Source of the DNA: Siphonodentalium dalli
Lineage: Eukaryota > Mollusca > Scaphopoda > Gadilida > Siphonodentaliidae
DNA: 64,000 nucleotides
Direction of reading: 5' to 3'
Assembly: GCA_032622095.1 (NCBI GenBank)
Contig: CP136067.1
Span: 137,643,990-137,707,989, forward strand
Positions within the stretch are counted from its first letter, which is position 1. Each line of letters opens with the position of its first letter. A program made the translations under genes and the position numbers. Below are positions 15,633 through 45,920 of the stretch, one piece after another. The notes under the pieces were generated by a model that worked only from the letters and a program-made list of their open reading frames with translations, searched no databases and was not told the origin of the DNA.

Positions 15633-16091
15633 TTAAAGGCCCACTTAATTTTCGGGTCACCAATTATTTTTTTTATAGTGACTTGGTATACGGTTTTAAT
15701 AACAATCTATGCCATAAAATATGATTAAAATGATATAATTCACCACTATTTGAAGCATCTGTGTCTCCGAAGATGCCCACAGATGAATAGAAGACTTCCC
15801 CCCTCTGTCACCCAGAATGCAACAGAATTCAAACTTTTTCAATGGAAGGGGAAGAACTCTATCTTTAATATATAGAGTTATTCCCCCTGCATTGAAAATA
15901 ATACTGATTTTTACTTCATTTTTGATGACAAAACGCGTTGGCAACTCAACAAAAACAACATGTCCACAGTTTATTCGACCAGATAAGTTGATAATACAAT
16001 GTTTTGGAGCTTCCTCTTTCAAATGGTATATAATATGGCATATATTTTATTTAATGTTATCTGGGGGTTCGAAAATTAAGTGGGCCTTTAA
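15633..16091. mobile_element. TTAA-flanked element with AGGCCCACTTAATTTTCG ends
   Basis: It starts TTAAAGGCCCACTTAATTTT and ends AAAATTAAGTGGGCCTTTAA, a precise inverted repeat. An internal inverted pair around 'ctatctttaatatatagagttattcccc' lies near 15855-15895. Other copies: 24767-25225, 38191-38656, 45424-45920 and the split copy 52808/60694. No coding capacity. Confidence 0.85.
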
Positions 16092-16790
16092 AGGCACACA
16101 AGACCTTCAAAATGGGTTAATGTTAAATTAAATGTTATTTTTTTTTAAAGTCTGTAAAGCAACTATCATCAACAAGTACAGTAATGCTCTAATTAATCTA
16201 CCTCTTAACCACTGCAGAATTATGGGTAACTTTTCAGGATTTAGTCGGAAATATGGCTTGTTGCCATTCATCGGAAAGCTCTCGGCGAGAGCTTTCCTAT
16301 AAATGGCAACAAGTCATATTTCCGACTAAATCCTGAAAAGTTACCCATAATTCTGCTGTGGTTAAGAGGTAGATTAATTAGAGCATTACTGTACATCACT
16401 CTACATGTGAAAATAGATTGTTATGTAAACATTACTGTTACAGTGGCATTACCAGTTAGTCTAGTACGATACCAACGTTTGATATAATCTTGACGGTAAA
16501 CATTGGAAAGGGTCAAAGCATTGAAAAATTGTTCTGAAAATCATATTTTTACTAAAATATTTGAACTTACTTTGCGATAAGCTATATTTATTGACAAACT
16601 ACTGTAACAGTTTTCTTTACATAACAATAGTTTCATCACATGAAATTTAGTTATTTGAGAGCTACGTGTATCAATAATTAATATTAGAATGAAGTTGTTC
16701 TATTTTCCCATCTTCTTGGTGATGACTTTTTTTCAGACTTTTATAATTTTTTCAAATCCACCCACTGCGAAGGCCTTGAGTTCCGTGAAA
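16088..16790. mobile_element. Degraded TTAAAGGCAC-end element, sharing TTAA with its neighbour
   Basis: The left end TTAAAGGCACACAAGACCTTC starts at the last TTAA of the preceding element. The right side 'ccacccactgcgaaggcctt' (16758-16778) matches in inverted sense the end of the better copy at 38994-39649. The right terminus is lost. A CAGTAATGC MITE (16179-16391) is nested inside. Confidence 0.5.
16179..16391. mobile_element. CAGTAATGC-family MITE, 213 bp
   Basis: TA-flanked full palindrome. Its arms carry 'gctctaattaatctacctc' on the left and the exact complement on the right, a variant not shared by most other copies in the window. Confidence 0.9.
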
Positions 16791-17046
16791 ACCATAATAC
16801 ATAATATGTACTAGTATAATAATAAATTTATTCTGATTTCTTATAATTACTGTCCATTTCAATGTTCATATGCTACTTTTTTACTCAATTCTTTCCTTTA
16901 ATTGAGGTGATGGATGAAATATTAGGGAGTTTTAGATTAAAAACTTTTAAAATCAAACTTTAGGTGCGGTCATCAACCAATGTCAGATAATGCATGCGAT
17001 TGCCAGATGTTTTCATTTACATGTACAATACATCTAGTGGAGTACA

Positions 17047-17590
17047 TGTGGAGCTCCATGATCCAGTGGTTAACCCTTTACCCAACAGAAGGGCCCTGTG
17101 CCAATGCATTCTCTTATATATGCGAGTCGACCATAGGTTGCCTCGCATATATAAGAGAATGCATTGGCTTAACACATTACAAATTATAAAATTGTTAAAG
17201 AATGTAAGAAAAAATGGTAAAAAGTGTTAAAAAAAGATTTTTTTTAGGCCAATGCATTCTCTTATATATGCGAGGCGACCTATGGTCGACTCGCATATAT
17301 AAGAGAATGCATTGGCACAGGGCATAACTGTAACTATCACAATGTGGTCAAGGAGCCGGTTCCAATGATATCCATATTTGTATGGTTCTATTGAGACAGA
17401 CCGAAGATATTTTAGGCTGTTGAAGCTTTATTTGGCCGTTTTGTTGGGTAAAGGGTTAACGCATCAGACTTGTCTTTGCCGTCACCACAGTGAGATAAGT
17501 TCACAGCCCGCCACTGGTCTAATGAGAGTTTCACACAGCAGTGGCTTGGCCAAATTGATCGACATGTAATATGTACACTATTCAAATTTC
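17047..17590 (+). repeat. tRNA-like SINE fragment, split by a TTAA element
   Basis: 'ccagtggttaa' (17063-17073) and 'cgcatcagacttgtctttgc' (17460 onward) together match the copy at 24262-24352, which begins ggtccagtggttagcgcgtc, a tRNA-like A-box region. The body 'actggtctaatgagagtttcacacagcagtggcttg' is shared with the other copy. The MITE sits exactly in the A-box-like part. B-box and tail are too diverged to be sure of the tRNA origin. Confidence 0.5.
17070..17459. mobile_element. TTAA/CCCTTTACCCAACA element with two internal hairpins
   Basis: Ends TTAACCCTTTACCCAACA and its exact inverse TGTTGGGTAAAGGGTTAA-like terminus (ttgttgggtaaagggttaa). TTAA plus CCCTTT ends are piggyBac-like. Inside, two hairpins of about 68 bp with arms 'ccaatgcattctcttatata' (17101-17166 and 17248-17316) are reverse complements of each other. 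Sister copies: 21563-21908, 23356-23733, 26361-26751, 37815-38194. Confidence 0.9.
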
Positions 17591-17765
17591 GCGCCAAGTT
17601 ATAACCCTTGATATAATCATGGTCGCTCGTACTGTGTCTGCTTCACCCCACCCATGTGTTGAAAGGGTACCTCATTATAGCCACATTGTGACTACCTCCC
17701 CCTGTCGATGGTAGATGGTTACTGAGTGTTCAAGCTCTTCAGGCGATCACAATCATTGTCTGACC

Positions 17766-17893
17766 GACTCTTTAACCACAGCAGAATTATGGGTAACTTA
17801 TCAGGATTTAGTCGGAAATATGGCTTGTTGCCATTCATCGGAAAGCTCTCGGGGAGAGCTTTCCGATGAATGGCAACAAGCCATATTTTAGAT
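17766..17893. mobile_element. Truncated CAGTAATGC-family MITE
   Basis: Left arm from 'ctctttaaccacagcagaat' through the central 'ctctcggggagag' and about 30 bp of the right arm. Both ends are missing. Confidence 0.8.
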
Positions 17894-18065
17894 AGATGAT
17901 GATGCCCGAAGTTTGAAGTTCTCTCTATTGAAGTGTCTTAATTTTCTGCATTGATGTTATCATTTTGTGTCTTGAACGATGACTGAAGATTAAGAGTTAT
18001 CTCATACTTTTTGCATGCTACTGAATGGGAGTTGGTGACAGTCAACATGTTAATGTGTAGTTTTC

Positions 18066-18445
18066 TTAAAGTTATGTGAAACACTCGGGTAGGGTGATCA
18101 AATAGAAATTAAGAATAATCTTGCTCAAAGTAGTTATTTGTTATGGATATTAATCCAAATTGACGATACACACCGTCATTCTTATATATTAATTAAATGC
18201 AATGACTCTTGATGGCGAAATCATTTGTGTTAGATTATCACCGATAGATGCATCCGAATCGAGATGTAAATATTTACAATTGGGCGTAGTTCAGACGATG
18301 TTTTCTATGGAATGGTATGGTTGATTTCTTTGAAATTTTTGGGGATGTTAGTAGAATGCTACATTCCCTGGGTTTGCATAGCACCTGAGTACTAACTTAT
18401 CAATTTCACGCACCCGAACAAGTCCATAATATCTCTTTAAATTTA
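18066..18445. repeat. Dispersed repeat, copy 1 of a 370-bp family
   Basis: Collinear with 61741-62113 in the same orientation: shared words include 'gtgaaacactc', 'gggtgatcaaatagaaat', 'ttaattaaatgcaatgactc', 'gttcagacgatgttttctat' and 'gtccataatat'. Both copies are bounded by TTAA near each end. No coding signal. Confidence 0.85.
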
Positions 18446-18550
18446 ACTTTAGATGCAGCATAGTTATCATTCTTTCTACATATACTTAACTATATGTTAT
18501 AAAATTCATTCACAGAAAAGAATTTACATAGCTTGCATTTTTCACAGAAT

Positions 18551-18791
18551 TTAACCTTTCTATGATAAATGGATTCTCCCAGTCATTTGAAAAGTTTACA
18601 TCGGTACAGTCTATTATTCATGTTAAGGTGATAAAAGAATACAACAGATGAATAAAAGTGCAGAAGGAGCCCTATTTATATTGAGGGAAATGTTTATATA
18701 ATTTGTTCAACAATGTTTGTTGAACTTATTATCTGAACATTTCCTATGGGATTACTACTCATCAATGATAATTTAGTATATAAACAGTTAA
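18551..18791. mobile_element. Diverged TTAA element of the TTCTATACTAAAT family
   Basis: It begins TTAACCTTTCTATGATAAAT and ends with 'atttagtatataaacagttaa'. It contains 'gaacttattatctgaacatt', shared with 23730-23978, 33100-33340 and 40070-40351. It shares its last TTAA (18788-18791) with the next element. Confidence 0.6.
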
Positions 18792-18905
18792 CCCTTTCAG
18801 TCCAAATTTTGTATCAACCCATATTTCCTTGATCATTTTTCAAATTTATAGATTATAATAATGTGATATATTGATGGAAAGAGCTATTTGGAAGCGTTAA
18901 TTCAG
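18788..18905. mobile_element. Half of a TTAACCCTTTCAGT-family hairpin element
   Basis: Starts TTAACCCTTTCAGTCC and continues with 'tatcaacccatatttccttg' as in 29768-29967. The right arm is missing. Confidence 0.7.
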
Positions 18906-19463
18906 ATTATGAATCTTTAATATTGATTATATTTCGAATGTTTTATTATAAAATGAGGTGATTAAATGGAACACTTTATTGTTCTATTTTTACAACAGAC
19001 CAGTCAGGCGATACCATTAGGGTGTTCCAATACCTATGCTCTGAACGTCAACTGTCCCAGATTGATTGCTTTGTATTGTTTTATTACATAATTATAAGAG
19101 ATAATGAGTCTAATTAACGTTTATTTGTGACAAAATTACACAATCAAATTTCTGGTCTCTATTAACAGTAACCATTATTGTTCGTTAGCTAAACAACCAC
19201 ACATTTTAGACCAGAAAATATTCGAAGCTTTTCCGGACAGGGGTCTTCAATCATACCTAATTATACCCCGGTAACTATATTACACATGCTTACAAAGAGA
19301 TAGACCATCTTTAATAATTATATAACTCATTTATATCCAATATCACAATTGTCACCACTTTATTGAATATCCAGTTTGTTATCTATTCATATGTTTAAAC
19401 AGATCGTTAAGTTGTTTTTATTCTTCAGCATGTTGCATTGATGTTTGTATTAATGATTTGTCA

Positions 19464-19696
19464 GTATTTTGAGCCAGCTCATGAAACAGCCTGATTATAA
19501 GTGTTCAGTCCACAGTCTATTAAAACAGGACTCGAAACAGCTTCGCAGTAAAGAGTCTGAAGAAAATGAGTGGGTTTTCCATTACCCCCCAGCAAGCATT
19601 ACGTCGGTGTCAACCTATCACAACATCTATCAGCAATACAGTCATTCAGGCAATTGTCGGAATTCCTACACCGTGGTGGATTCGCCACATAGCTAA
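19464..19696 (+). CDS. Candidate 3'-terminal exon of an unidentified gene
   Basis: After a gatttgtcag acceptor-like sequence an open frame runs to TAG at 19694-19696 and reads about 77 residues, including DYKCSVHSLLKQDSKQLRSK, ENEWVFHYPPASITSV and STYHNIYQQYSHSGNC. The composition (charged linker, then Ser/Tyr-rich tail) looks like a real cytoplasmic tail rather than chance AT-rich sequence, and it does not belong to any repeat in the window. AATAAA occurs at about 19705, directly after the stop. I do not recognise the protein. No partner exon could be joined with confidence, so this remains a candidate. It could also be a chance ORF. Confidence 0.35.
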
Positions 19697-19959
19697 ACAT
19701 AGAACAATAAATGTTCTGTCACATCGATAAATTCACACAAAATTAAAGATTACAGCAGCTAATTAAACAGTAAAGGCGTATGCGAAGAGTCCTAATTGAC
19801 CAATACTACCTAGCAAGGAGAATAGAAGTACGTATTCTAAGAATCTCAACAGATAACGGTAGATATAAAGGACATTCGTAAATCTATTTGTGCTCTGTGA
19901 TGTCATGCTGCATGGATCACATGTAGAAGTTATTTACAGCGATGGTAATGTGACACAGA

Positions 19960-20300
19960 GCTAAATTCACCAGACTCTGTACTGCGATGCAGCTCCAGTC
20001 TTGTTTTTATCAGACTGTCAGTCCTTCCCACGAGGAATCAGCGAGAGCACTTACTTGCTCTCGCAATTCAGAAGACGGGTGTAATTGCGCCCATAATGTA
20101 ATTGTAAGTTGTGTTTTTCTTAAACAAAATGTCAATATGGGATAGACCTATGTCCAGTTACACTTTCACATGCCTATAATTTAACTGAGATGGGAAAGGT
20201 TCCAAATATACCTTTAAATAGATTAATATTGAATCAACGATTACAGTCACCATAAGCATTTTTATAAGAGGGACGAGTGCGAATTTTAGCACCCGTGAAG
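19960..20300 (-). repeat. Dispersed repeat shared with 44120-44395 and 48660-48860
   Basis: Words 'gggatagacctatgtc', 'gtttttcttaaacaaaatgtc' and 'agggacgagtgcgaattttagcac' occur here. Their complements occur in reverse order at 44120-44300, and part of them at 48715-48790. Probably an unclassified transposon. Confidence 0.7.
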
Positions 20301-20554
20301 TAAAAATTATGCATCTCTATGCGGGGTAGCGTCACTAAATTCACCCTCTGGGGACCTCATTCTGCAAATGACAGACATACTAAACTCAGGCTTGGAAAAC
20401 TGGCTCATGAAATTTCAGTTATCTTGTCAGATAAGCTGTGTGATTTTTCACCTATTAGTTGGGGACTAGTCAAAGCTTTATCTTTCAGTGTCTGCCAATT
20501 CTCGCATGCTTCCCATTTCTTTAAGGATGTTGTGTTTATTTATAGGGAAATAAT

Positions 20555-21217
20555 GTCGCATCAGTGCTATAAGGTCGTAACTCCATTTTGGCGGGAAATG
20601 AGTATCTGATATCATTCGAATTGTGAGAAAATTCCAGTGACACAAATGTCGTATCTCCAGCGATCTTCACAATTATTCGTGCTTTTAGGTCGTATGTCCA
20701 ACAGCAGCCAATCGGATGCTTCAGGTTGTCCACGTGACTTCTGTTTTGTGTTTGTAAATTCTCAAATGTGTGCTATATGGTCGTATCTCCATGTTAGTCA
20801 CGTGATCATTTGTTGATTTAAATTTTGTGATTGTTCCACAAATTTCTGTATGATGATGCACATGAGTGAATATTCATAATGTAGAATAGGCACTTTTTAG
20901 TTCATAGACACATGCGATTGCCACCATATTTAGCTTAATCTGTATTTATTAGCACAACTTCCTTATAGCACGGAAACCAATCGTCGTTGGCATACGCAAA
21001 AGGGCATATCTCCAAACAAGTTATTGCTTTTTAAAAGAAAACGAGGGAGTAAACAGATATGTGGTTCAATGGACAGCTAATGTCAGTTTTCATTGGGATA
21101 AATACAACAATACGTCATGCTTTGTCAACATTATGAGAAATGTTGTCAGAAAACTTCAACCTTCATTTTCTCGGAAAGTTGAAAATGTGAGTTACGACCT
21201 TATAGCACTGACGCGAC
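20555..21217. mobile_element. TIR element with TATAAGGTCGTAACTC ends, 663 bp
   Basis: Left end GTCGCATCAGTGCTATAAGG and right end CCTTATAGCACTGACGCGAC are inverted partners over about 29 bp. The motif 'GGTCGTATCTCC' or a variant is repeated near the left side (20573, 20648, 20688, 20782), resembling sub-terminal binding repeats. No clear target duplication and no coding sequence. Confidence 0.75.
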
Positions 21218-21562
21218 GATAAGACACTCACAATGGATAGATGTGAACATCATTTAAAGATGGATTATCTCTTTAAATAATTTTTTTTAGATAGTTTCCT
21301 GGGTGTGAAATAATACCTATGAGTTGTAAATCCCTCCCCAGAAATGATTCTATCAATTAATATTGATTTTATTTTTCTATTATTTTATTCAATTAATGGG
21401 ACACATCTTTGTTCTATAAATAAAACTTTTAGATAGAGGCCTCCAACGTGGTGCTCCGAACGAATGCAAGCCGCAAAAGTCTCCGATTGATTGTATCTAT
21501 TGTAATATTAAGTGCGATAAGTAGATAAAACCTAGAGTGTACCATATGCTTATTTTAAATAA
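21218..21562. other. No gene seen
   Basis: AT-rich sequence without repeats or exons that I can support. Confidence 0.5.
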
Positions 21563-21908
21563 TTAACCCTTTACCCAACAGAACGGCCCTGTGCCAATGC
21601 ATTCTCTTATATATGCGAGTCGACCATAGGTCGCCTCGCATATATAAGAGAATGCATTGGCTTAACACATATTAAAAATGATAAAATTGTCAAAGAATGT
21701 AGAAAAATATTATAAAAAATGTTAAAAAATGTAAGAACAAATATAAAATTGGTCGACTCGCATATATAAGAGAATGCATTGGCACAGGGCATAACTGTAA
21801 CCATCACAATGTGGTCAATGAACCGGATCCAATGATATCCATATTTGTATTCTGTTATTGAGACAGACCGAAGATATTTTTTGGCCGCTTTGTTGGGTAA
21901 AGGGTTAA
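21563..21908. mobile_element. TTAA/CCCTTTACCCAACA element, one hairpin damaged
   Basis: Ends as in 17070-17459. The first hairpin (21591-21661) is complete, but of the second only the right arm remains (21752-21785). Confidence 0.9.
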
Positions 21909-22257
21909 TAACTGTAAATAACATACAAATGCAAATAAAAAAGACTCGTGAGTTTCAGGGACCATTATTGAATGGCAAAGAGTTATTTTATGCAAACAAA
22001 ATCCAAATAAAATCAATATTAATTGATAGACCGTCATGGATGTGTTTCCGGACAGGGGTCCTCGATTCGTATTTATTATTTCATACCCAGGATACTATAT
22101 AGATCATGTTGCGGAAGAGATAATCCACCTTTATAGAGACATAAGGCACTGAATGGGTAAATGTGATAAATCATTTAGAAGAACATGGTAAAAATAGAGA
22201 GACTTTATTCTTACTTTTATAAGCCTGTTGTAAAATAACGGGAAGTACAGTAATTCC

Positions 22258-22374
22258 CTAAATAATCGACTCCTTAACCACAGCAGAATTATGGGTAAAT
22301 TTTCAGGATTTAGTCCTGAAAAGTTACCCATAAATCTGCTGTGGTTAAGGAGTCGTTTATTTAGGGCATTACTG
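22258..22374. mobile_element. CAGTAATGC-family MITE lacking its centre
   Basis: TA-flanked. Both arms are present ('ccacagcagaattatgggta' and complement), but the central region with 'gaaagctctc' is deleted, leaving 117 bp. Confidence 0.85.
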
Positions 22375-22557
22375 TATTATGTTATTGATCTGTCCGTTCA
22401 TTTTTTTAGTTTCCGGATAACTTTAGTAAGACTGAACTGAATGGAATGAAATTGGTATGTAAGTTTACTGGCCCAAAATATGGGTCAAGTTTGAATTTGG
22501 GTTCCCCCTGCCAATTGTCACCAAAGTGATGGCTCTTTGTTGGAATTACCACACAGA

Positions 22558-22664
22558 CAGTAATGCTCTAATTAATGGACCTATTAACCACAGCAGAATT
22601 ATGGGTAACTTTTCAGGATTTAGTCGGAAATATGGCTTGTTGCCATTCATCGGAAAGCTCTCGG
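22558..22664. mobile_element. Left arm of a CAGTAATGC-family MITE
   Basis: From cagtaatgctctaatta to gaaagctctcgg. The right arm is missing. Confidence 0.8.
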
Positions 22665-23355
22665 CTTTCATGAGCTGGACTCAGCTGCTCTTTTAACCGA
22701 AATGGGAAATTGGGTCGAGAATAAATTGGGCAACCGACCGGAAGTTTGAGATGAACACACACAATTCGATCGCTGTTTCCGACATTCCAACTACACAAAA
22801 GCAAGACACCACACCCATAAACTGTTAAACTGTACTTGCTGATGTAAATATCACTTATTTAAAACGATTCTAGAACATCTATTGGCATAAAGACAATCTG
22901 ATTCGATAGCAATTCCGAAGCGGTGTTCCCAAACTTCCCCACCGAATTTGTGGTCTCCGGTGACTCGAAAAGTAAACAATCGCTACAAAGGCGCATTCCA
23001 TGCTCTCATGACCACTGCCATGTCATATTAGTATTGACACGAAGCTGGATAAATGCTAATACTAATGGTGGAATAGTTATGTAATACAAAATTCGACTTG
23101 GTTTGCGAACTTTTTAAAGTATCACTACCCCCAGTGATGCGGGAAACGACACTTGACTCGACTGATAGATATTGTCGCTACCAAGCGTATCTAAGGGCCT
23201 TGACCAATCAAATGCACGCATTTTAGTCAAAGCGAAAGTAGTTGTAATTATAATGAAAATAAGAACAAAGTTTTTTTTCATCGTCTTCTTGGTAATAAAT
23301 TGTGTATGATTTTTCAGATGTGCCTACCATGAATTCTTGGAGACACAGTCTCCCA
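22665..23355. other. No gene seen
   Basis: About 690 bp with no recognisable repeat end, exon or RNA. Words 'ctgattcgatagcaattccg' resemble 14610-14625, which suggests old repeat. Confidence 0.5.
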
Positions 23356-23733
23356 TTAACCCTTTACCCAACAGAAGGGCCCTGTGCCAATGCATTCTCT
23401 TATATATGCGAGTCGACCATAGGTCGCCTCGCATATATAAGAGAATGCATTGGCTTAACACATTAAAAATTATAAAATTGTTAAAGAATGTAAGAAAAAA
23501 TGGTAAAAAGTTTTTTTTTAGGCAAATGCATTCTCTTATATATGCGAGGCGACCTATGGTCGACTCGCATATATAAGAGAATGCATTGGCACAGGGCATA
23601 ACTGTAACTATCACAATGTGGTCAAGGAGCCGGTTCCAATGATATCCATATTTGTATGGTTTTATTGAGACAGACCGAAGATATTTTAGGCTGTTGAAGC
23701 TTTATTTGGCCGGTTTGTTGGGTAAAGGGTTAA
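23356..23733. mobile_element. TTAA/CCCTTTACCCAACA element with two hairpins
   Basis: Complete copy (378 bp), hairpins at 23388-23456 and 23522-23590. Its right TTAA (23730-23733) is also the left TTAA of the next element. Confidence 0.9.
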
Positions 23734-23978
23734 CCCTTTCTATACTAAATACTCATTATCCCATAGGAAATGTTCAGATAATAAGTTCAACAAACGACCT
23801 TAGGTCATTAGGTTATTATCTGAACATTTCCCCACCAGTGAATAGTAAACCTTCTTGCACTTTACTATCTTTTCGTCTGCTCATTTATCCCGAACACCCC
23901 TCCAAATTAATAATAGACCATTCCATTGTATACTTTTATGACTGAGTGGGAAAATCCATTCAGTATAGAAAGGGTTCA
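23730..23978. mobile_element. TTAA/CCCTTTCTATACTAAAT element
   Basis: Starts TTAACCCTTTCTATACTAAA and ends 'cagtatagaaagggttca', the last TTAA mutated to TTCA. Inner arms 'atgttcagataataagttca' and its complement form a hairpin. Sisters at 33100-33340 and 40070-40351. Confidence 0.85.
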
Positions 23979-24352
23979 GATTGCCAGTCTAGAATTACCA
24001 AAGTGATTGGTTGATATTTAATAGTTTATATTGCATGTATAGACATTTATCCTTATATGGTGCATGCTTATTATAATTATCCTATGAAACATACTAATTG
24101 TAACTTATTGCATGCTTATTTTACATTTTGCCTCATCTAACTTTTGTGATAACGAAATTCATCAAATGCTATTTTTGTACATAATGTTATTAAAATGGTG
24201 AAAAATCAGTTGAGCCTTCTTTGTTCAATGGGGGTTTTTGCAGTGGGGAGAGTTTTCTGTGGAGGTCCAGTGGTTAGCGCGTCGGACTAATCTTCGCTGT
24301 CAACACAGCGAGAGGAAATCGCAGCCGGCCACTGGTCTGATGTGAGTTTCAC

Positions 24353-25718
24353 GGGTAGGGTTCTCTGTTCCGAAGGTTCATTGTTCCGAAGGTTCATTAT
24401 TCCGAAGGTTCGCTATTCTGAAGGTTCATTGTTCCGAAGGTTCCCTATTCCGAAGGTTCACTATTCCGAATGTTTTCTATTCTGGGCGTATTTAACCAGA
24501 AATGAATCAAAATTTGCACCCCCACAAAAAAACACACGAGGAATGAAAAATACTATTACGCTAGTATTCACATATAGTACATTTATACACCCCGTTCTAA
24601 TTGCCAGATTGTCCCAGATGTCGTTTATTAATAGCAAGAAGACAGTATCAGTTTATTGTTTATTATGGACAGTTGAAAACACGATGACTGCACATGTATG
24701 ACTGAAATAAACTACAGGTAAGAAATACAGTCTGTCCGAACTGTCAATCTGAAAGAAACATCAAAATTAAAGGCCCACTTAATTTTCGAACCCCCAGATC
24801 ACATATATAAAATATATGCCATATTATATACCATTTGAAATAGGAAGCTCTCTAACATTGTATTATCAACTTATCCGGTGTAATAAACTGTGAACATGTT
24901 GTTTTTGCTGAGGTACAGACATGTTTTTGTGCTTAAGTTTCATCTGGTTTTGTTGCGCAAAGTATATTATTTTCAATGGAGGGGGAATAACTCTATATTT
25001 TAAAGATTGAGTTATTCCATTGAAAATACATTTTAGTTTAAATTCTGGGAGCCATTACGGGGGAATATTTTTGTGATTTCATCTGTATTCTATTCTCTAT
25101 GGATTTCTTCTGAGAAACAGACGTTTCACATGGTGATGAATTATAGTACTTTAATCATATTTTGTGGCATAGATTGTTATTAAACCGTATATCAAGGCAC
25201 TATCAAAAATTAAGTGGGCCTTTAAAGTCAATACAAAGTCACAATTGCAGTTAGGTTATCCGTCTATCCAGCGTTACAGCTACGCAGTATGTTATGGCGC
25301 TCCAGTATTCATTGCGCGTTATAGCCCCACTGTTAGAATCCGCCTTTATCTGGTGTATTCATACCTCTAAGATTATTGAGATATAACATAATACGTGATG
25401 GCATTAAATCGTATGGAAACATAGCAATTGTGTGGGCTGCGTGACGTGAATACATATTGAGAAATAACGTCATACGTAATGACATTCAATATCAAGGAAA
25501 CCCGTGAAAACCCAAAAAATCACATTTATTGTTTTAATATTTTAAGTTATTTCCTTCATAAAAAGAGTCTTCGTGATAAGGAACCCTCTCAATACTTTAG
25601 AATATAGAATTAAACTTTAAAATAACAAAACCTTCGGAATAGCGAACCTTCAGAATAGTGAACCTTCGGAATAGCGAACCTTCGGAATAGCGAACCTTCG
25701 GAATAGAGACATGTCCCC
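24353..25718. mobile_element. 1366-bp TIR element built of 17-bp tandem repeats, 9-bp target duplication
   Basis: The left TIR (24353-24480) is about seven copies of a 17-bp unit like 'ttccgaaggttcactat'. The right TIR (25625-25705) is the same unit inverted, about five copies. GAGTTTCAC flanks both sides (24344-24352 and 25719-25727). A 9-bp duplication with long TIRs fits a Mutator-like (MULE) element, but no transposase is present, so the superfamily is tentative. A TTAA element (24767-25225) is nested within. Confidence 0.7.
24767..25225. mobile_element. TTAA-flanked AGGCCCACTTAATTTTCG element, nested
   Basis: TTAAAGGCCCACTTAATTTT at the left and AAAATTAAGTGGGCCTTTAA at the right, 459 bp, inserted into the 17-bp-repeat element. 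Confidence 0.9.
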
Positions 25719-35560: not shown

Positions 35561-36017
35561 ACACACTTGCCCAAATACATAAAACACAGATCAGGTTACT
35601 TTTCCCTTCCCTACGCAGTTAACAAATACACACCTCTCATTCGTGCAAATTATAGCACTAATAGGGCGAACGGAAACTAAACACTTCAGACTCAACATTC
35701 AAAACAAATGTCCATCATGAGAAAACATGTCAGGCCACAAATGCAGGAAGTAGCCTCTAAATCTAAGGTGCTACATATTCTGGGTTCTTGGTCTGTTGAC
35801 GAGTTACCATAACTTTTCCATTCGCCACAAATTTCATGCCCCAGGATTTCATCAACATCATAGCAGGACCAGGATTGAAAATGATCTACTCAGAAAAAAA
35901 TGAATGATCGTAGTACCCTTATAAAACTGTCAATTACAAAAATAGAATATTTTATATTGTAAAATCATTATTTTACAACAAAGGGATAAATAATTATAAG
36001 CTTCTTACCCTCATCTA
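35561..36017. other. No gene seen
   Basis: Unique sequence without supported features. Confidence 0.5.
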
Positions 36018-36224
36018 CAGTAATGCCCTTAATAATCGTCTACTTAGCAGAATTACAGGTAATTTTTCATGATTTAGTTGGAAATATGGCTTGATGCCAT
36101 TCATCGGAAAGCTCTCAGTGAGAGCTTTCTGATGAATGGAAACAAGCCATATTTCCAACTGAATCCTGAAAAAGTACCAATAATTCTGGTGTGGCTAAGG
36201 AGTCGATTATTTAGGGTATTACTC
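36018..36224. mobile_element. CAGTAATGC-family MITE, diverged
   Basis: TA-flanked palindrome with more mismatches between the arms than in other copies. Confidence 0.8.
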
Positions 36225-36257
36225 TAACTCAGAATATATACACTAAAAGTTTAGACT

Positions 36258-36262
36258 CTCTA

Positions 36263-36303
<41 letters not shown>
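36258..36303. repeat. (TA)n microsatellite
   Basis: Mostly uninterrupted TA over about 46 bp. Confidence 0.95.
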
Positions 36304-36308
<5 letters not shown>

Positions 36309-36673
36309 CGGCTGGTTCAATTGGGACATGGACCAGTCTAAGTTTCTGCTTCGATCATGGAATTAAAAGTAGATTTTAATAACTGATTTACATCTCAAAT
36401 TTAATATAATTAATTAGTGAATGAAAATTGCTATCTAGCAGCTGGTAGAATGCCACTGTTTCTGCAACGTTCCTGTCTGTTTATTTGTACACGCTCAATG
36501 TCTCTTGTTGAACAGACTGGTTCCTGGTCTAAAACTGCAAAAATATGAAAATGTAGTAACCGGACCCTCCAGCTACAGTACATGCACATAAGATTCGTTC
36601 GAGTCCAGTACTGAAGTAAATTTAACCTGTATGTAATGCATGTTTGTGTGCCATTGACTCAATAACAGAAGTA

Positions 36674-36887
36674 CAGTAATGCCCTAAACAATCGACTCCT
36701 TAACCACAGCAGAATTATGGGTAACTTTTCAGGATTTCGTCGGAAATATGGCATGTTGCCATTCATTGGAAAGCTCTCACTGAGAGCTTTCCAGATGAAT
36801 GGCAACAAGCCATATTTCTGACGAAATCCTGAAAAGTTACCCATAATACTGCTGTGGTTAAGGAGTCTATTATTTAGGGCATTACTG
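36674..36887. mobile_element. CAGTAATGC-family MITE, 214 bp
   Basis: TA-flanked, nearly perfect palindrome. Both arms carry the variant 'tttcgtcgg'/'ctgacgaaa' instead of 'tttagtcgg'. Confidence 0.9.
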
Positions 36888-37175
36888 TATTTTTCAAGAC
36901 TGTGTGCACACATTGTTTATGTAGGAGAAGAGATAATACAATATTCAATGCTGTGTGTATGCGCTGTTCATGTTGGACGAGATTTTTTAAACTCTATATA
37001 CTGAAATACACACATTTGTTATGCCACATACTGCTCACATTGAATTGGAGTTGAATGATGTAGGCATACAATATTTTGCTATGAACTTCAAACAAAATAA
37101 AAATTTGCCCATGTGCAACTAAATTCCATGAAATTTCTATCACCAAAGCCAAATATTGCTAATTTCCATGACTAT
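36888..37175. other. No gene seen
   Basis: Short duplications ('gtgtgcacacattgtttatg', 'gtgtgtatgcgctgttcatg') only. Confidence 0.5.
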
Positions 37176-37305
37176 TTAACCCTTTCAGTACCAAGTCCGA
37201 TTTTTGTATCATCAATGTATCACATTATTATAATCAATAAATTTGAAAAATGATCAAGGAAATATGGGTTGATACAAAAATCGGACTTGGCACTGAAAGG
37301 GTTGA
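37176..37305. mobile_element. TTAACCCTTTCAGT-family element, centre deleted
   Basis: TTAACCCTTTCAGTACCAAG to cttggcactgaaagggttga, 130 bp. The arms are asymmetric because most of the left arm's inner part is missing. Confidence 0.85.
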
Positions 37306-37632
37306 GGTCTGGAAGTGAAATTGCATGACTTTTCCAGATTCAAGAAACCCTGATAAATTCTACAAATACTACATCATGAACATATCAATATAAAATGCGA
37401 GCATGACTTCATTATCCATAAAAATGTTTTTCAAACATTACCGAAAAATGAGTGTATTAGTCAAGTTTGAATGTTTTCATTGATCAGAGTATCCAGGATG
37501 TCCAAAATTTCACTAATAGACTTTCTGCTTCGATTCAGTAAAAAACAGCACTTCTAATGCATTCGTTCCAATTTTGCCTAAATGAAAAAAAACCTCTAAA
37601 TTTTACTATGTGTTTGCAGCCATCAAAGTTTA
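37306..37632. other. No gene seen
   Basis: Unique AT-rich sequence. Confidence 0.5.
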
Positions 37633-37797
37633 TTAACCTTTTGATGATGGGGAGCTGCGCTGGTGCAGCATTGAAGATCCTGCACCAGTGCATTATCTTA
37701 GGTCAATGTAAATATTGTTAGTCCAATGTATTCTCTTATATATGTGAGCACAGGGTTTTCGTAAAATTTCAGGAAGCTCCAGTCATGGAAGGTTTAA
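37633..37797. mobile_element. Short TTAA element of the TTCATGAAGGGAG family
   Basis: From ttaaccttttgatgatgggg to ctccagtcatggaaggtttaa. The internal hairpins are mostly deleted. Confidence 0.75.
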
Positions 37798-37814
37798 ATA
37801 AAATTGCATGTCTC

Positions 37815-38194
37815 TTAACCCTTTACCCAACAGAAGGGCCCTGTGCCAATGCATTCTCTTATATATGCGAGTCGACCATAGGTCGCCTCGCATATATAAG
37901 AGAATGCATTGGCTTAACACATTAAAAATTATAAAATTGTTAAAGAATGTAAGAAAAAATGGTAAAAAAAGATTTTTTTTAGGCCAATGCATTCTCTTAT
38001 ATATGCGAGGCGACCTATGATCGACTCGCATATATAAGAGAATGCATTGGCACAGGGCATAACTGTAACTATCACAATGTGGTCAAGGAGCCGGTTCCAA
38101 TGATATCCATATTTGTATGGTTCTATTGAGACAGACCGAAGATATTTTAGGCTGTTGAAGCTTTATTTGGCCGGTTTGTTGGGTAAAGGGTTAA
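37815..38194. mobile_element. TTAA/CCCTTTACCCAACA element with two hairpins
   Basis: Complete 380-bp copy, hairpins at 37846-37914 and 37981-38050. Its right TTAA (38191-38194) is shared with the next element. Confidence 0.9.
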
Positions 38195-38656
38195 AGGCAC
38201 ATTTAATTTTCGAGTCACTGATTATTTTTTTATAGTGACTGGATGTACAATCTATGCCATAAAATATGATTAAAATACTATAATTCATCACCATTTGAAA
38301 CATCTATTTATCAGAAGAGAAATAGAAAACAGCTGAAATCATAGAAAGATTCCCCCTGTTTTGGCTCCCAGAATGCAAGAGAATTCAAACTAAAGATGTA
38401 TTTTCAATGGAAGTGGAATAACTCCATCTTTAGGATATAGAGTTATTCCCCCTCCATTGACAATAATACACTTTTTACTACAATCTAGATGACAAAAACA
38501 CGTCGGTAACTCAACAAAAACAACCTGTTCATAGTTTATTACACCCGAGAAGTTGATAATACAATGTTTTGGAGCTTCCTCTTTCAAATGGTATTTTATA
38601 CGGTATATATTTTATATATGTAATCTGTGGGTTCAAAAACTAAGTGGTCTTTTTAA
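38191..38656. mobile_element. TTAA element with AGGCnCAnTTAATTTTCG ends
   Basis: TTAAAGGCACATTTAATTTT at the left. The right end 'aaaactaagtggtcttttt-aa' is diverged. The internal 'tatagagttattccccctcc' pair is present. Confidence 0.75.
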
Positions 38657-38711
38657 TTGAGAGGTTGCATGCTAATCCGGTGGGTTTTGGTGATCCTGGG
38701 TACTACAATTA

Positions 38712-38835
38712 CAGTAATGCTCTAAGTAATCGACTTCTTAACCACAGCAGAATTATGGGTAACTCTTCAGGATTTAGTCGGAAATATGGCTTGTTGCCAT
38801 TCATCGGGAAAAATCGATTATTTAGGGTGTTACTG
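38712..38835. mobile_element. CAGTAATGC-family MITE with most of the right arm deleted
   Basis: TA-flanked, 124 bp. The left arm is complete to 'ttgccattcatcggg', then only 'aatcgattatttagggtgttactg'. Confidence 0.85.
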
Positions 38836-38993
38836 TACAACAGACAACAATTTTCGTTGACACTTTTAGGCCACACAAGTACTGTATATGTTGTTCAAAT
38901 ATACATTTTTGCTATTATTTTCAACCATATAACAAATTAGCAGTTTTGTATCGGTAATGCAAATACAATGAGGATCAAACACCATGTGTGGCA

Positions 38994-39649
38994 TTAAAGG
39001 CACAGATGGCCTTCGCGATGGGTATTGCTGTTAAAATAGTGACATCCTTTAAATCTGTCATAAACAGAAAGAATATTAAAATATAGAGACCTTGTTATTA
39101 TACCAATCATAAATATCGTGTAAATAGTATGCTGTAGTCAAGCTAGGATGCTTTGTTATGTAAACAAAAGCCCAAAAATTTCATTAAACATAGCTTTTGT
39201 TTACATAACATTAACATACTATTTACACAATATCTATGATTTGTTAAAGAACAAAATATGTCTATATTTTAACCCTTAAAGGCCTGGAGATTTCATGGAA
39301 AACTACTAATAATAGGGTACTATTGCTTGTGAGCCTGGGGTATGAGAATGGGTTGAGATATAATGAAGCCCCAGGTGTCATTTTGAAGGTAAATGGACAG
39401 TCTATAAAATTTGATACCAATTGACCGGAACAACCTGATCCTTACCTGCAATTTGCACCTGTAATTAACAGGTAAACTACTGAGAAACAGTTATATCCAT
39501 GATGTGCATCAGTTTGCTATGCTTTATTATATATGTATTTAGTATATTTGATCAATCTTGGCAAATTATTTCTGTTTATGGTAGTTGTGTGACTATTTGT
39601 GTGACTATTTTAACAGCATACCCACCGCGAAGGCTATCCATGCCTTTAA
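38994..39649. mobile_element. TTAA element with AGGCA...CCTTCGCG ends, 656 bp
   Basis: TTAAAGGCACAGATGGCCTT and its inverse 'aaggctatccatgcctttaa', with 'gctgttaaaatag' inverted further in. A palindrome at about 39105-39250 ('ttgttatgtaaacaaaagc' / 'gcttttgtttacataaca') forms its core. The partial element at 16088-16790 belongs here. Confidence 0.8.
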
Positions 39650-39907
39650 TATAAAGGAATTCAGCTCCAAAACCAAATAAGTTACCTTATCAAACAGATT
39701 ATAGATAAACATGCATAGATCAAATAAATAGTACCTGAACACAGAAACGGGTGTTAACAATATCATAGCAATGACTAGAATGCTAACATTGCATTCTCCT
39801 CATACAGACGGACATTATCAATCCACTCTCCAACATGACGGATTATAAGTGTTCACTCAAGGTTATTGTCCAACCAAAACATTAAGTGACCGACTTGATT
39901 GAATTGA

Positions 39908-40023
39908 CAGTAATGCCCTAGATAATCGACTCCTTAACCACATCAGAATTATGTGTAATTTTCAGGATTTAGTCGGAAATATAGCTTGTGGTTAAGGAGT
40001 TGATTATTTAGGGTATTACTCTG
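39908..40023. mobile_element. CAGTAATGC-family MITE, internally deleted
   Basis: About 115 bp, left arm and outer right arm only. Confidence 0.75.
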
Positions 40024-40069
40024 ATCTAAGTACACTTAGCTGTAAAATTAAAATGTGACCTGCACTTAA

Positions 40070-40351
40070 TTAACTCTTTCTATACTAAATACTCATTGAT
40101 GAGTTGTTATATATCCCTTAGAACATGTTCAGATAATAAGTTCAAAAATGACCATAGGTCGCTAATCGGATCATAGGTCATTTGTTGAACTTATTATCTG
40201 AACATTTCCCTCTAATAAATAGGCCTCATTCGGAACTTTTATCATCTGTCTGCTTATTTTTGCTGAAAACGCCTCCAGATCAACAATAGACTGTTCCAAT
40301 GTATACTTTTATAACTGAATAGGAGAATCCATCTAGTATAAAAAGGGTTAA
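40070..40351. mobile_element. TTAA element, TTCTATACTAAAT family, with hairpin
   Basis: TTAACTCTTTCTATACTAAA to 'tagtataaaaagggttaa'. Inner arms 'tgttcagataataagttca' and complement pair around 'gaccataggtc'. Confidence 0.85.
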
Positions 40352-40859
40352 AAAACTTCACCATAATATAATTTATTGCAGTTCCAAGAACGAAAACATA
40401 CTTTTTTTTTCATGACTCCAAAGCATAGCGTTCTTAATGCATGCTACATCAAGAGATCATTCCTGGCAACTCTGCTACTTCATGGAAAATACGAACTAAA
40501 TTTTGTGATAGTTCTATTGTCACTATGATGCAATGACCGCAATTTATCATTTATCTACTTTTTCTTGTGTGAATGAGTGGTCCATTTTATGGGGCTAATC
40601 GATGAAAATGAACGAATATGCGAGTGCACACCAAAAAGTTTTGATGGGCAAATCCATAGTAATATATAAATATGATGTTTCTCAAAACCTTCGGAGAATG
40701 AAATGTCCATGTCCTTGTTTCATATTCAGAATAAAGCCCAGTACCATATAATAACTACCTCTTATAGATAAAAAATTATTATTTATATAAAGCGCTTATT
40801 TCACAAACGTGTTCTAAGATGCTATAAACACACCATTCTCATTCTACCCAAAGTACATA

Positions 40860-41071
40860 CAGCAATGCCCTAAATAATCAACTCCTTAACCACAGCAGAA
40901 TTATGGGTAACTTTTCAGGATTTTTCGGAAATATGGCTTGCTGCCATTCATCGGAAAGCTCTCACTAAGAGCTTTCCGATGAATGACAACAAGCCATATT
41001 TCCGACTAAATCCTGAAAAGTTACCCATAATTATGCTGTGGTTAAGGAGTCGATTATTTAGGGCATTAGTG
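40860..41071. mobile_element. CAGTAATGC-family MITE, 212 bp
   Basis: TA-flanked palindrome with the typical central 'gaaagctctcactaagagctttc'. Confidence 0.9.
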
Positions 41072-41526
41072 TAATGTCATTAATGCCATTATCCATCCTG
41101 CGCAGATGAAAAAATATCCAAGCTGGAATCAAACTAGAAAGGTAAATCATCCAAGAGCTATCCAGGCCTTTCCTTGCTTAACTCCAGCGATCTATCGAGA
41201 ACCCGAACGTGACAAACTAGCACACCTCATATGAGGTATGACGGCAGTATCATACCACAGAAACAGTCATAGTCATCACTCAATGGATGTTATTGCTACC
41301 ACCACCTTCCAGATTAAAACCATATATCTTGTAATTACACTGATATATCCAGGAAGAACAGTGTACTATCCAAGACAATTCATGATCTGAACATAACTTG
41401 GAGAACAAGCTGGAATTCCTTCATGTTATTAGAGATGTGACGTGACATCAGTAGAATAACATAGAAATTTGCAACCAACGATATTATTGCCATGACCACC
41501 TTCTGGCCAAAACCATAAATCTTGTA

Positions 41527-41739
41527 CAGTAATACCCTAAATAATCGACTCCTTAACCACAGCAGAATTATGGGTAATTTTTCAGGATTTCGTCGGAAAT
41601 ATGGCTTGTTGCCATTCATCGGAAAGCTATCAATGAGAGTTTTCCGATGAATGGCAACAAGCCATATTTCCAACTAAATCCTGAAAAATTACCCATAATT
41701 CTGCTGTGGTTAAGGAGTCAATTATTTGAGGCATTACTG
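41527..41739. mobile_element. CAGTAATGC-family MITE in the OSBPL8-type 3' UTR
   Basis: TA-flanked, 213 bp, near-perfect palindrome. It ends 54 bp beyond the stop codon of the - strand gene, so it should be transcribed in the 3' UTR unless polyadenylation occurs within those 54 bp. No AATAAA is seen there. Confidence 0.9.
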
Positions 41740-41793
41740 TATGGCATAACCATAAATAACAGTGTAATATATCCAAGCGAATCCAAAGGTCCA

Positions 41794-42071
41794 TCACTGG
41801 AACATTACATGAAGAACAAACTGGAATACGAGGATAATCCCAAGCATGAGCCATTCTCGATAACTTCCGAATTCGTTACGATCTAGCCTGTCCTGAACTC
41901 TTAGCACTTGAATTTGAAGGTCCTTTATGGAATTAAGTATAGCGTCTTGTGGCGTTTCTCGACGAGTTGTTGACGGTGATGCATGGGATTTCTTTACACT
42001 CAATTGTCGTGGGATTTCTTCAATAGGATCGATTCTGGCGTCAACCTTATCACAGTGTCGACGACGCAGAT
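41794..42071 (-). CDS. OSBPL8: OSBPL8-type oxysterol-binding-related protein, last coding exon
   Basis: Starts at 42071 after a tttttttcag acceptor. The preceding exon supplies the first base of an Asp codon. It encodes a basic segment (LRRRHCDKVDARIDPIEE), a helix with heptad character (ILNSIKDLQIQVLRVQDRLD) and a C-terminal hydrophobic anchor, REWLMLGIILVFQFVLHVMF, then TGA at 41796-41794. ORP5 and ORP8 are the ORPs with exactly this C-terminal tail, which anchors them in the ER while the ORD exchanges phosphatidylserine for PI4P at plasma-membrane contacts. The similarity to the vertebrate tail (IxSIxxxQxxI...IxFMFK) is clear in plan. Confidence 0.9.
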
Positions 42072-42114
42072 CTGAAAAAAATTAATTATAGACAGTGAGA
42101 TTAGTAAATATATA

Positions 42115-43472
42115 CCGTACTGACCCGGTTCAAAGCCCATGCCCGTGTTTAAGCCCACCCATATTTTTTGGCCAAATTCCATGCACAGGGGTATATTCGT
42201 GTTTAAGCCCACCCCAAATTTTGGTCAATTTCAGCAGTGGTAAGTAAGTATTTGCTAATGATACTCCCCAAATAAATAATTCCAATATATAATGAGAAGT
42301 ATATTCGCAAACGATCGGTGACGGCAAGAATGCCACGAAAAATGGAAAGTTATACTTCGTAGGTAAGTGATAATATTAAATGAAATAAAATAAAATGAAT
42401 CTTAAATTCTCATTTGTTTATTCAATTATACTTCCCGGGGGAAACCAAATACAAAAGAACTCACTCGCTAACAACGTATAGCTTTAAAAACCATGTGCGG
42501 CTATGCGCGTGCAATACTTTAATCAAAGCCCACCTGTTCAACTACAGTACTGTAAAAACATATTTTTCGTGTTCAGTGACAACGCACCGTAGGTATGTTC
42601 CTGCATGTGACCAAACACAAAGAACTGGCTTCTTGGTTATGTAAACACACAGTGGGTATAATAATGGAACAGAAGGGGGAACTTGTCATTCCAATGTCTT
42701 CCAAACTACGTCAACGTTATTCACTCGAAACCAAAATAAAGGTTATCGACATCAAACTGCATTTTGTTCACGTTTTACAGTATAAACAATTCAGGAACAA
42801 TAACACTAAATATTCAAACACGTGCTTTTTTCATTCGGAAAACCTCGTCAGATTCCGTCACACCCAGAGGTCACACCCATAGGTCACAGGTCGAGAAGTT
42901 CAGAACGGTGTTTTTTTATACGTTTTAGCAGAAATACAAGCCTTTTGTCAGTACTGTTAAATAATTACACTCACTGGCTTTTGTTAAACATGCAATTAGT
43001 CGCTATTGTAACATCCTCTATGTGGACAATGGATCACGAATAAAGCGCCGGGTTTATTGTTTTCCTAATCGGATTAAGTCTGAACATTGATATAAACTAT
43101 AGACGTCTGATAGACTATAAGATAAGGGATTTACCCATAACCCACATTGCCGCTTACATAATAGTGTCATTTTAACATGGGAATTTTGGGCAATAAAACT
43201 ACAAGACTTAAAAGTGTTATCATATATTTTAATATTCACATTTAATTGAAAAATTACTTTCTCAAAGTAACTTATAAATACTTACCTTTACTTAATTTGG
43301 AAGCCGGTATATTTCCCAAATAATCGGCGTTAGATCGGCTTTCATAAGTTTTAATGTCCCGATTTCTTAGGATTTTTGGTCTGCAAAGGGCCATATCCGA
43401 GTTTAAGCCCACTTGGATTTTTTAGCTCAAATAAAACAAAGGCCCCCTGGGCCTAAACGCGGGTCAGTACGG
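42115..43472 (+). mobile_element. pogo/Tigger-like element, 1358 bp
   Basis: Ends CCGTACTGACCCGG and CGCGGGTCAGTACGG with TA on both sides (42113-42114 and 43473-43474). Both sub-terminal parts carry 'gtttaagccca' words. A frame at 42690-42775 gives MSSKLRQRYSLETKIKVIDI, the start of a CENP-B/pogo-type HTH, and then fails. It is a deletion derivative in the last OSBPL8-type intron. Confidence 0.75.
42690..42780 (+). pseudogene. N-terminal remnant of a pogo-type transposase
   Basis: About 25-30 codons from ATG 42693 resemble the beginning of pogo/Tigger/jerky proteins (xxKRxxYTxExKLxVI). The rest of the DNA-binding region and the DDE domain are absent before the element's end. The assignment depends on this short match plus the TA-flanked ends. 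Confidence 0.5.
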
Positions 43473-44119
43473 TAGATAAATTTATATCGCGATGCGTTTG
43501 CACCAGCAAGCTCCAAATTTATGAAAATGAATTAAAGGAACATACAACAGAAGACTTGTCATATTCAATGCAGTCAATAAGGAATGTAAAAAATTTAAAT
43601 GTAATGTGTAATTACTAGAGGTCAACGCAGAGAGCTATAGAGAAGTTTGGGATAAATTGAATCAAAAATGTTGGCTGCCAGCGGCCATGTTTTTTAAATG
43701 AAATTCGGAAAAAATTGCTGGCTTCCATCTAGAGATCATCCCAAAGATCCATATGAGGTATGGTGACAATTGGATCAGGGATGTGGCTGCATGGTGTGCC
43801 AAAAGATCTAGTCATGCAAAGAGTAAACTCAGATAGCTGCCGGTGGTCATGTTTTTAATGAAATTTTGAAAATTTTAATTTAATAGCTCCAACCAAGAGG
43901 TCATCCCGAAGGTTCAAATGAAGTTTGGAGACAATCGTATCAGGGAAGTGGCCGGTCAGGTGTGCTAAGTGCAAAAAGTTCAATAGCACCCATCTAGAGG
44001 CGATCCTAAACATGCCTGTAAATTTTAAAAACATTTCGCCAAACAATAATTTTGGCTTCAGGATGTGTCGATTGATCCAAATCTCCCATCTAGTATGCGC
44101 TCACAATTTTTATTATATT
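43473..44119. repeat. Diverged tandem repeat in intron
   Basis: Words 'agaggtcatcccgaag' or variants recur at 43729, 43898 and 43995, with 'tcagggatgtggc' / 'tcagggaagtggc', in units of about 100-170 bp. Same style as 4560-5620 ('cagcggccatgtttt'). Confidence 0.6.
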
Positions 44120-44397
44120 TCAAGTGCTAAAATTCGCACTTGTCCCTCTTAGGGTGACTGTAATCGTTTGAAGGTTTATTAAAATATTTCCAATCTCAAT
44201 TCAATTATTTGCATGTGAAAGTGTAAATTGACATAGGTCTATCCCACAATGACATTTTGTTTGAGAAAAACCCAACTTATAATTATATTATTGGTACAAT
44301 TACACTAGTCTTCAAAATTGCGGGAGCAAACAAGTGCTCAAATAAGTTTTCCTCATGGGAGGACTGGACAATGCTCCTTGAAAAGCTTTAACCCTTT
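44120..44397 (+). repeat. Dispersed repeat, inverted copy of 19960-20300
   Basis: 'gtgctaaaattcgcacttgtccctc' and 'acataggtctatcccac' are complements of words at 20140-20290. Confidence 0.75.
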
Positions 44398-45427
44398 CAG
44401 TGCCAGGGGCCGATCTCATCGGCCCTAATTTACGGTCGGTAAAATCGGCCCTAAAATTTATTATTTTTTTTTAATAGATTTTTTTGGATATGCTTAAAGG
44501 GGTACTGTACGCCAAATGTTGTTGTTGGTTTCTATAGTCTCCGAGTCGGAGAATAAGGTAACAATTTTTCCATTATTTAAAAGTCTATTGAGTACGAAGT
44601 CATGTTACGGATGACAAATTTACCGGAATGCAAAAATACAAATTGTCGTTGTCGAGTAATTTTTGTAAAGTTTTCAACCAAATGAATCAAATAAAAGTTA
44701 TATTATATGCATACTAGTCCCATATAATCATTTAAGTTATTGTATCGCCGCTAGTCAGTGAGTGGCTTGAGTGTTCTCCCCGTATCATCATAATATTTTA
44801 AGCAATCGTGTGTGCGATCGATTTAAAAATCCAGTATCCCTCAATTACTATTTTTGATTACGGTAATTCGTAATTTAATTGACGCCATTTTATGGCTCCA
44901 GTCATAAATTCAATTTATATCAAATTATTAACTTTTAAATGATTAAATTTTAAGATAGCCTATTAACCTGAGCGTTTACAGAATACATCTTCGACTCAAA
45001 TTACTTATGTTTCTATATATTATCGATATTAGATCGTTGTTGTCACCGGAAATTTAATGAAAATGGCGTAAAGTACCCCTTTAAGCATGCTATAGCAAAT
45101 TTAAAAACAAACTGGATAAAATCTTAGGGGCATGTTATAACTCAAAACTATCACCAAGTATTCATAGTAATAATTTTGATGCCCATGAAAAACGTAAGAT
45201 TCCCTGGCACTAAACCTACAAAATAAGTCTGTTAAAGAATATAAGAAAAAATTATTAAAATTGTAAAAAATTGTAAAAAATAATAACAAATGATGAAAAA
45301 TTGTTATGCCAATGCATTCTCTTATATATGCGAGGCGACCTATGGTCGACTCGCATATATAAGAGAATGCATTGGCACAGGGTATATGGGTTGATACAAA
45401 AAACGGACCTGGCACTGAAAGGGTTAA
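44398..45427. mobile_element. TTAACCCTTTCAGTGCCAGG element with nested insertions
   Basis: TTAACCCTTTCAGTGCCAGG and its inverse 'cctggcactgaaagggttaa'. Inside are a complete TTAA element (44494-45084) and one hairpin with 'ccaatgcattctcttatata' arms (45308-45378). The right TTAA (45424-45427) is shared with the following element. Confidence 0.85.
44494..45084. mobile_element. Nested TTAA element with AGGGGTACTGTACGCC ends
   Basis: TTAAAGGGGTACTGTACGCC and 'ggcgtaaagtacccctttaa' with flanks 'atgc' and 'gcatg', 591 bp. The end word also occurs at 14170-14187. Confidence 0.85.
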
Positions 45428-45920
45428 AGGCCCACTTAATTTTTGAACACCCAGATCACATTATATAAAATATATGCCATATTATATACCATTTGAAAGA
45501 GGAAGCTTCAAAACATTGTATAATCAACTTGTCCGGTGTAATAAACTGTGAACATTGTTGTTTTTGTTGAGATATCGATATCTGTTCTGTGCTGAAGTTT
45601 CTACACAAAGTCTTATTATTTTAAATTGAAGGGGAATTACTCTATATATTTAGATATAGAGTTATTCCCCTTCCATTGGAAATAAATTATAGTTTGAATT
45701 CTGTTGCATTCTGTGAGCCATAATGGGGGAAATGATTTTATGATTTGAGCTATTTTCTGGTACTCTATAGGCACCTTCTGAGACACAGATGTTCCGTTCC
45801 AAATGGTGATGAATTATAGTATGATAATCATATTTAATGGCATAAATTGTTATTAAAACCGTATATCAAGGCACAAAATAAAAAAACAATTGGTGACTCG
45901 AAAATTAGGTGGGCCTTTAA
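45424..45920. mobile_element. TTAA element with AGGCCCACTTAATTTTnG ends
   Basis: TTAAAGGCCCACTTAATTTT and 'aaaattaggtgggcctttaa', 497 bp, with an internal inverted pair around 'tatagagttattccccttcc'. It ends 30 bp before the splice donor of the next exon. Confidence 0.9.

Follow-up and report, generated by a model that had tools for sequence, protein, structure and literature searches.

Short DNA elements flanked by TTAA lie close together in a 64,000-nucleotide stretch of the scaphopod Siphonodentalium dalli (hereafter the window; contig C7:137,643,990-137,707,989 of an assembly of 2.23 Gb in nine contigs), and at several points two of them meet over one shared TTAA. The question raised by this locus is what builds such chains: whether later elements are drawn to the ends of earlier ones, as a first-pass annotation had proposed, whether joined pairs are copied as units, or whether ordinary insertion suffices. 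We consider it probable that the chains grew by ordinary insertion, with short DNA transposons specific for TTAA landing one after another in mostly independent events, shaped by a preference for certain flanks and perhaps by regional clustering. By this reading, each insertion would regenerate TTAA at either side of the new copy, and later elements could thus use the sites next to an element like any others.

At least 22 TTAA-flanked elements or element ends, assigned to families named A, B, C, D, E and G, were found in the window. Elements A5 and A6, both within the 22, are known from one end each and their inner limits are arbitrary. The five places where unlike elements had been said to meet were inspected, and a single TTAA between unlike terminal repeats was directly observed at all five. 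These junctions (all intervals are given without strand) are A1-E1 at 16088..16091, D1-C1 at 18788..18791, B3-D2 at 23730..23733, B5-A3 at 38191..38194 and C4-A4 at 45424..45427. Every pair was indeed of unlike families (A-E, D-C, B-D, B-A and C-A), which agrees with a genome-wide shortage of B-B junctions presented below. A weathered partner or far end was found at four of the five (16088, 18788, 23730 and 38191). At the first, A1 (15633..16091, termini TTAA followed by AGGCCCACTTAATTTTCG, both ends intact) meets E1 (16088..16795), whose left end is recognisable with 2 mismatches to a hand-made pattern and whose decayed right end was placed by eye near 16790; E1 gave no blastn match to E2. 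At the second, the junction ends of D1 (18551..18791, weathered, 69-70% identity to D2-D4) and C1 (18788..18920, one-ended, with no recognisable far end and an approximate inner limit) carry 3 mismatches each. At the third, B3 (23356..23733, 95-98% identity to B1, B4 and B5 and 83% to B2) adjoins D2 (23730..23978), in which TTCA replaces TTAA at the far end. The fourth joins B5 (37815..38194) to A3 (38191..38655, decayed far end, 79% identity to A1), and the fifth joins C4 (44388..45427) to A4 (45424..45923, TTAA at both ends).

The mode of insertion was read from B copies within an internal TTAA of family A, 9 bp from the A end. At this site 38 B insertions were found compared to about 30 expected under uniform insertion; thus B enters A internally and not at the edge alone. 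Windows were fetched for 14 hand-picked B-in-A loci out of the 38 matches, two of which (L049 and L050) were copies of one locus with 100% identity. In about 12 of the 14, B was directly seen to be bracketed by TTAA on each side with A sequence beyond. As judged by eye, the sequence TTTTCG, which is that of the empty A site, followed B in 8 of the 14 and was present with 1-2 changes in 4 others. This match of the sequence after B to the empty site is a direct demonstration of TTAA duplication by B, and the earlier statement that insertion into TTAA leaves TTAA on both sides was borne out in A's own TTAA.

Nested and adjacent miniature inverted-repeat transposable elements (MITEs) generally reflect later elements inserting in or beside earlier ones. 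The junctions here differ from the general case in being seamless: the target duplication is shared, and for this reason TTAA-specific transposons build chains in which a single junction gives no insertion order. For A and B the order was approached from nested copies. Compared to the 38 B insertions in A, no A was found at the one B-internal TTAA to which this search was confined, where by our own arithmetic about 15 would be expected had A activity followed that of B and the site been retained in all B copies; A inserting into B was set aside to that extent. The A copies of the window are also more diverged (76-89% mutual identity) than B1, B3, B4 and B5 (95-98%), with B2 only 81-83% like the latter. 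Based on the nested counts and the greater divergence of A, most A-B junctions are best interpreted as insertions of B into the flank of A, with A probably the older family in the main.

If few events had yielded many junctions, with pairs multiplying as composites through transposition or segmental duplication, then junction loci should be mutual copies. Such copies were found: 4 pairs among 20 A/E-B loci match along the full 1.8 kb, including one that lies on two chromosomes (L029 and L044, 99.4%), and 1 pair among 8 B-D loci shares 740 bp. By direct inspection most fetched loci were nonetheless distinct, with 16 of 20 A/E-B, 8 of 8 B-C and 7 of 8 B-D loci, or about 31 of 36 overall, having flanks of their own. 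The loci were hand-picked among the matches listed (20 of 169 A/E-B, 8 of 11 C and 8 of 9 D exact matches), some for close spacing, and the share of copy pairs may therefore be over- or underestimated. In the four A-B pairs identity does not end at the outer TTAAs and carries on through the host flanks, suggesting segmental duplication, and identical TTAA-bounded pairs at unrelated sites were absent among the 36 loci. Joint amplification of pairs as composites, named in the first-pass annotation as one outcome that would undo its proposal, thus left no sign among the junction loci fetched, and we regard it as a very improbable source of the chains; it was set aside on the count of distinct loci.

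The first-pass annotation had further held that the junction rate is far above chance. This was examined by simulating sequential insertion of 22 elements into the 516 TTAA sites of the window, with 4,000 runs per setting. Under uniform targeting the mean was 0.92 junctions, and five or more were reached with P = 0.001. When ends were given a weight of 1.8, the rate of B at TTAAAGGW sites generally, the mean rose to 1.55 and P to 0.014; weights of 2.5 and 3.5, the latter close to the raw A-end rate, gave means of 2.11 and 2.74 with P = 0.046 and 0.12. These P values are optimistic because the window was selected by eye. The window is also rich in B, with 156 exact B ends per Mb compared to about 41 genome-wide (about fourfold). 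The claim was not confirmed: P reaches 0.014-0.12 once ends are used at 1.8-3.5x, and the window is B-rich and was selected by eye.

To place end use on a genome-wide scale, B was counted beside other sequences. Exact B ends numbered 75,097 with one base restricted, or about 92,000 in total assuming a G frequency of 0.186 at that base, and TTAA sites were estimated at about 17.7 million from 397 in a sample of 50,000 bases taken at round coordinates; uniform insertion would thus place B at 0.26% of TTAA sites. TTAAAGGW sites, unfiltered for elements, carried B in 0.46% (1,266 of 274,082; 1.8x uniform). A ends adjoined B in an estimated 0.90% or so (about 103 of about 11,500; 3.4x). Here the junctions were scaled from 61 exact ones among 100 matches listed of 169 (eye count, contigs C1-C5) and the ends from 58 among 100 matches listed of 19,801 (eye count, first 18.7 Mb of contig C1). 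C ends adjoined B in about 0.45% (about 58 of 12,944; about 1.7x), as scaled from 11 among 100 matches listed of 527 (eye count, contigs C1-C2). By contrast to the AGGW flank, TTAATTTT sites, which present a TTTT flank, carried B in only about 0.024% (194 of about 795,000, the latter estimated from 41 of 1,823 flanks), or about 0.09x uniform. Flanking sequence alone thus shifts the B rate about nineteenfold. Similarly, three A/T bases start 18% of 73 distinct B flanks, sorted by eye from 100 flanks among the matches listed, compared to 32% of 791 background flanks. D ends were dropped as a rate basis, as the joint count of C and D ends (35,117, compared to 12,944 for C alone) is inflated by tandem arrays of D ends.

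These rates bear on whether element ends are specifically attractive, with terminal repeats or bound proteins drawing later transpososomes to the adjacent TTAA. In keeping with such attraction, A ends carry B at 3.4x the average TTAA and 1.94x TTAAAGGW sites, the window holds 5 junctions compared to 0.9 expected under uniform insertion, and an additional junction is present in 2 of the 20 loci fetched (B-A-B at L034, E-B-B at L041). L041 was, however, picked for closely spaced matches, and the two chains are a biased rate; a third chain, A-B-A at L033, was dropped as a misread orientation, this locus having A-B only. The internal TTAA of A, 9 bp away from the end, is itself slightly above average, and B's own ends are used at just 0.26x. 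Uneven use of this kind (A 3.4x, C 1.7x, B 0.26x) means that there is no preference for ends in general, contrary to what had been proposed. A threefold hot spot at the A end relative to the internal TTAA was likewise weakened as a candidate, since the internal site has the disfavoured TTTT flank. Attraction by ends is, in our judgment, unlikely. We instead attribute the modest A-end excess mostly to a probable flank preference of B, in which G/C-containing flanks would be favoured and runs of T avoided; regional clustering, rather than recognition of ends, possibly adds to it. Flank preference and clustering need to be modelled before element ends are claimed as targets.

Clustering was mapped in one 6.6-Mb stretch, leaving out tandemly duplicated B ends (contig C1 742-916 kb) and matches to the A pattern that were not A-like. 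B ends co-clustered with one another 9.6x at 5 kb and 5.7x at 20 kb, values inflated by other duplicated blocks kept in the stretch, and with C ends 8.9x at 5 kb and 5.9x at 20 kb. For A and B a value above unity was found at wider range (1.1x at 50 kb, 1.8x at 200 kb). Contig C1:5.9-6.6 Mb shows a strong concentration of B, C and D ends, with apparent duplicated blocks about 0.45 Mb apart.

Several results weigh against independent insertion with flank preference as a full account. The A-end residue over TTAAAGGW is 1.94x, or about 1.6x when scaled by the 16 of 20 distinct loci; this 1.6-1.9x is unexplained and leaves room for a weak end effect in family A. At short range A and B showed no co-clustering in the same 6.6-Mb stretch (0.5x at 5 kb, 0.8x at 20 kb), and clustering is therefore no shown cause of the residue. 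B uses A's internal TTAA about 13x above the prediction from its TTTT flank, which renders a one-sided flank model incomplete. The observation that C ends (1.7x) are about equal to general TTAAAGGW sites, although it argues against end attraction, compares C ends with TTAAAGGW rather than with CCC-flank-matched sites, and both the A-end and C-end rates are scaled from matches in part of the genome. Finally, B2 at 81-83% and some B-B partners only 70-80% alike indicate older members of B, and the order of A then B is therefore uncertain for some pairs.

B's own ends showed a deficit. Genome-wide, 31 B-B loci were found compared to about 120 expected (0.26x uniform), the pattern requiring Y and R at the outer bases and the expected value being calculated without that requirement. 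Right ends were joined in 15 of the 31, left ends in 9, and 7 were head-to-tail (one-sided P = 0.0017 against one half). Twenty of these loci, chosen by hand, were fetched (every head-to-tail one and 13 of the 24 inverted ones); two of them, L079 and L080, were copies of one locus (99.1%). B sequence lay on both sides in 14 of the 20 (5 of 7 head-to-tail and 9 of 13 inverted), and the others share the terminal repeat only. We think it most likely that B-B pairs are depleted by recombinational loss of adjacent similar copies, which would account for head-to-tail pairs being the rarest class, since these are direct copies. Such loss alone leaves the shortage of inverted pairs unaccounted for, to which hairpin instability or self-avoidance may contribute.

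Self-avoidance would act at insertion, the B transposase skipping TTAA sites directly beside its own terminal repeat, and we hold it to be a tentative alternative of rather low probability. Beyond the deficit itself, it draws on the comparison with family C: C ends and B ends begin alike (CCCTTT) and cluster with B equally in the mapped stretch, yet per end C carries B about 6.7x as often as B does (from 11 sampled matches; roughly 3 to 12). Against self-avoidance stand the occurrence of B-B pairs, with B on both sides at the loci noted above, and the rarity of the head-to-tail class, which fits deletion between direct repeats; inverted pairs may vanish via hairpins. In addition, PMC3952818 makes the case that transposases of eukaryotes may have no self-avoidance. 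The idea is compatible with our preferred account of the unlike pairs. In its general form, a TTAA transposon would shun the site beside its own terminal repeat and freely use those of other families, such that chains would be unlike by rule; we offer this as a speculation of likewise rather low probability. The like-like shortage can in any case be measured, and could serve to tell self-avoidance at insertion apart from recombinational loss afterwards.

Judged by their termini, families B, C and D look piggyBac-like (TTAA followed by CCCT) and families A, E and G look Kolobok-like (TTAA followed by AGG). Duplication of TTAA is common to both superfamilies (PMC9587614 and PMC2872659). TTAA duplication was found for B, with C and D seen flanked by TTAA, and the terminal motif CC[C/T]T, as defined in PMC2872659, is present as CCCTTT at both ends of intact B, C and D copies. 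For the Kolobok-like families, TTAA was present at both ends of A1, A2, A4, E2 and G1 (filled sites only), and the AGG..CCT termini of A, E and G agree with the 5'-RR and YY-3' termini given for Kolobok in PMC9587614. Given this assignment, the B-A and C-A junctions would join two superfamilies.

Among described systems, the CMITEs of coral, piggyBac-type MITEs, are similar to B, C and D in TTAA duplication and the CC[C/T]T motif, and CMITE-IN, a TTAA element at the internal TTAA of another TTAA-bounded repeat, parallels the nesting seen here (PMC2872659). A, E and G share a TTAA target and 5'-RR termini (AGG) with the Kolobok superfamily and T2-type MITEs, as portrayed in PMC9587614 and PMC6004289. 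KolobokP has long terminal direct repeats; none were noticed in A, E and G, for which no dedicated search was made. No treatment of shared-TTAA junction rates was found in the literature, as judged by titles and abstract openings.

Tandem arrays are a further trait shared with CMITEs, whose arrays are ascribed to slippage in PMC2872659 and consist of whole elements; here only the D end is arrayed. This end (TTAA plus terminal repeat) forms head-to-tail arrays of about 46-84 bp per unit, the largest, L002, having about 24. Five arrays on contig C1 were recorded: L001 (C1:6398700-6399800), L002 (C1:6425350-6426750), L003 (C1:5941000-5941800), L004 (C1:994250-995000) and L005 (C1:6580550-6581450). 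L001 and L003 share both flanks and differ in unit number, which suggests slippage or unequal exchange in place of insertion.

Additional features of the window were noted. Element B2 (21563..21911) sits at an internal TTAA of a TTAA-bounded repeat (21357-22025), inside and away from the repeat's end. C4 encloses G1, a TTAA-bounded repeat at 44494-45087 with termini AGGGGTACT, together with 81 bp that match B at 97.5-99% identity, and thus mixes families. A palindromic element ACAGTAATGC..GCATTACTGT, apparently TA-flanked and with TTAA sites of its own, occurs in several copies between 14339 and 41740 (e.g., 16178-16392 and 41526-41740), and this element holds 8 of the 100 B flanks among the matches listed (4 insertions). 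At 53285-55104 the B-end pattern is matched weakly every 225 bp or so, suggesting a tandem array. A 186-bp perfect inverted repeat lies at 46329-46514 and 51141-51326, its arms separated by 4.6 kb. An open frame at 3183-3623 (+) matches DDE_Tnp_4 (PF13359, E 2.7e-38).

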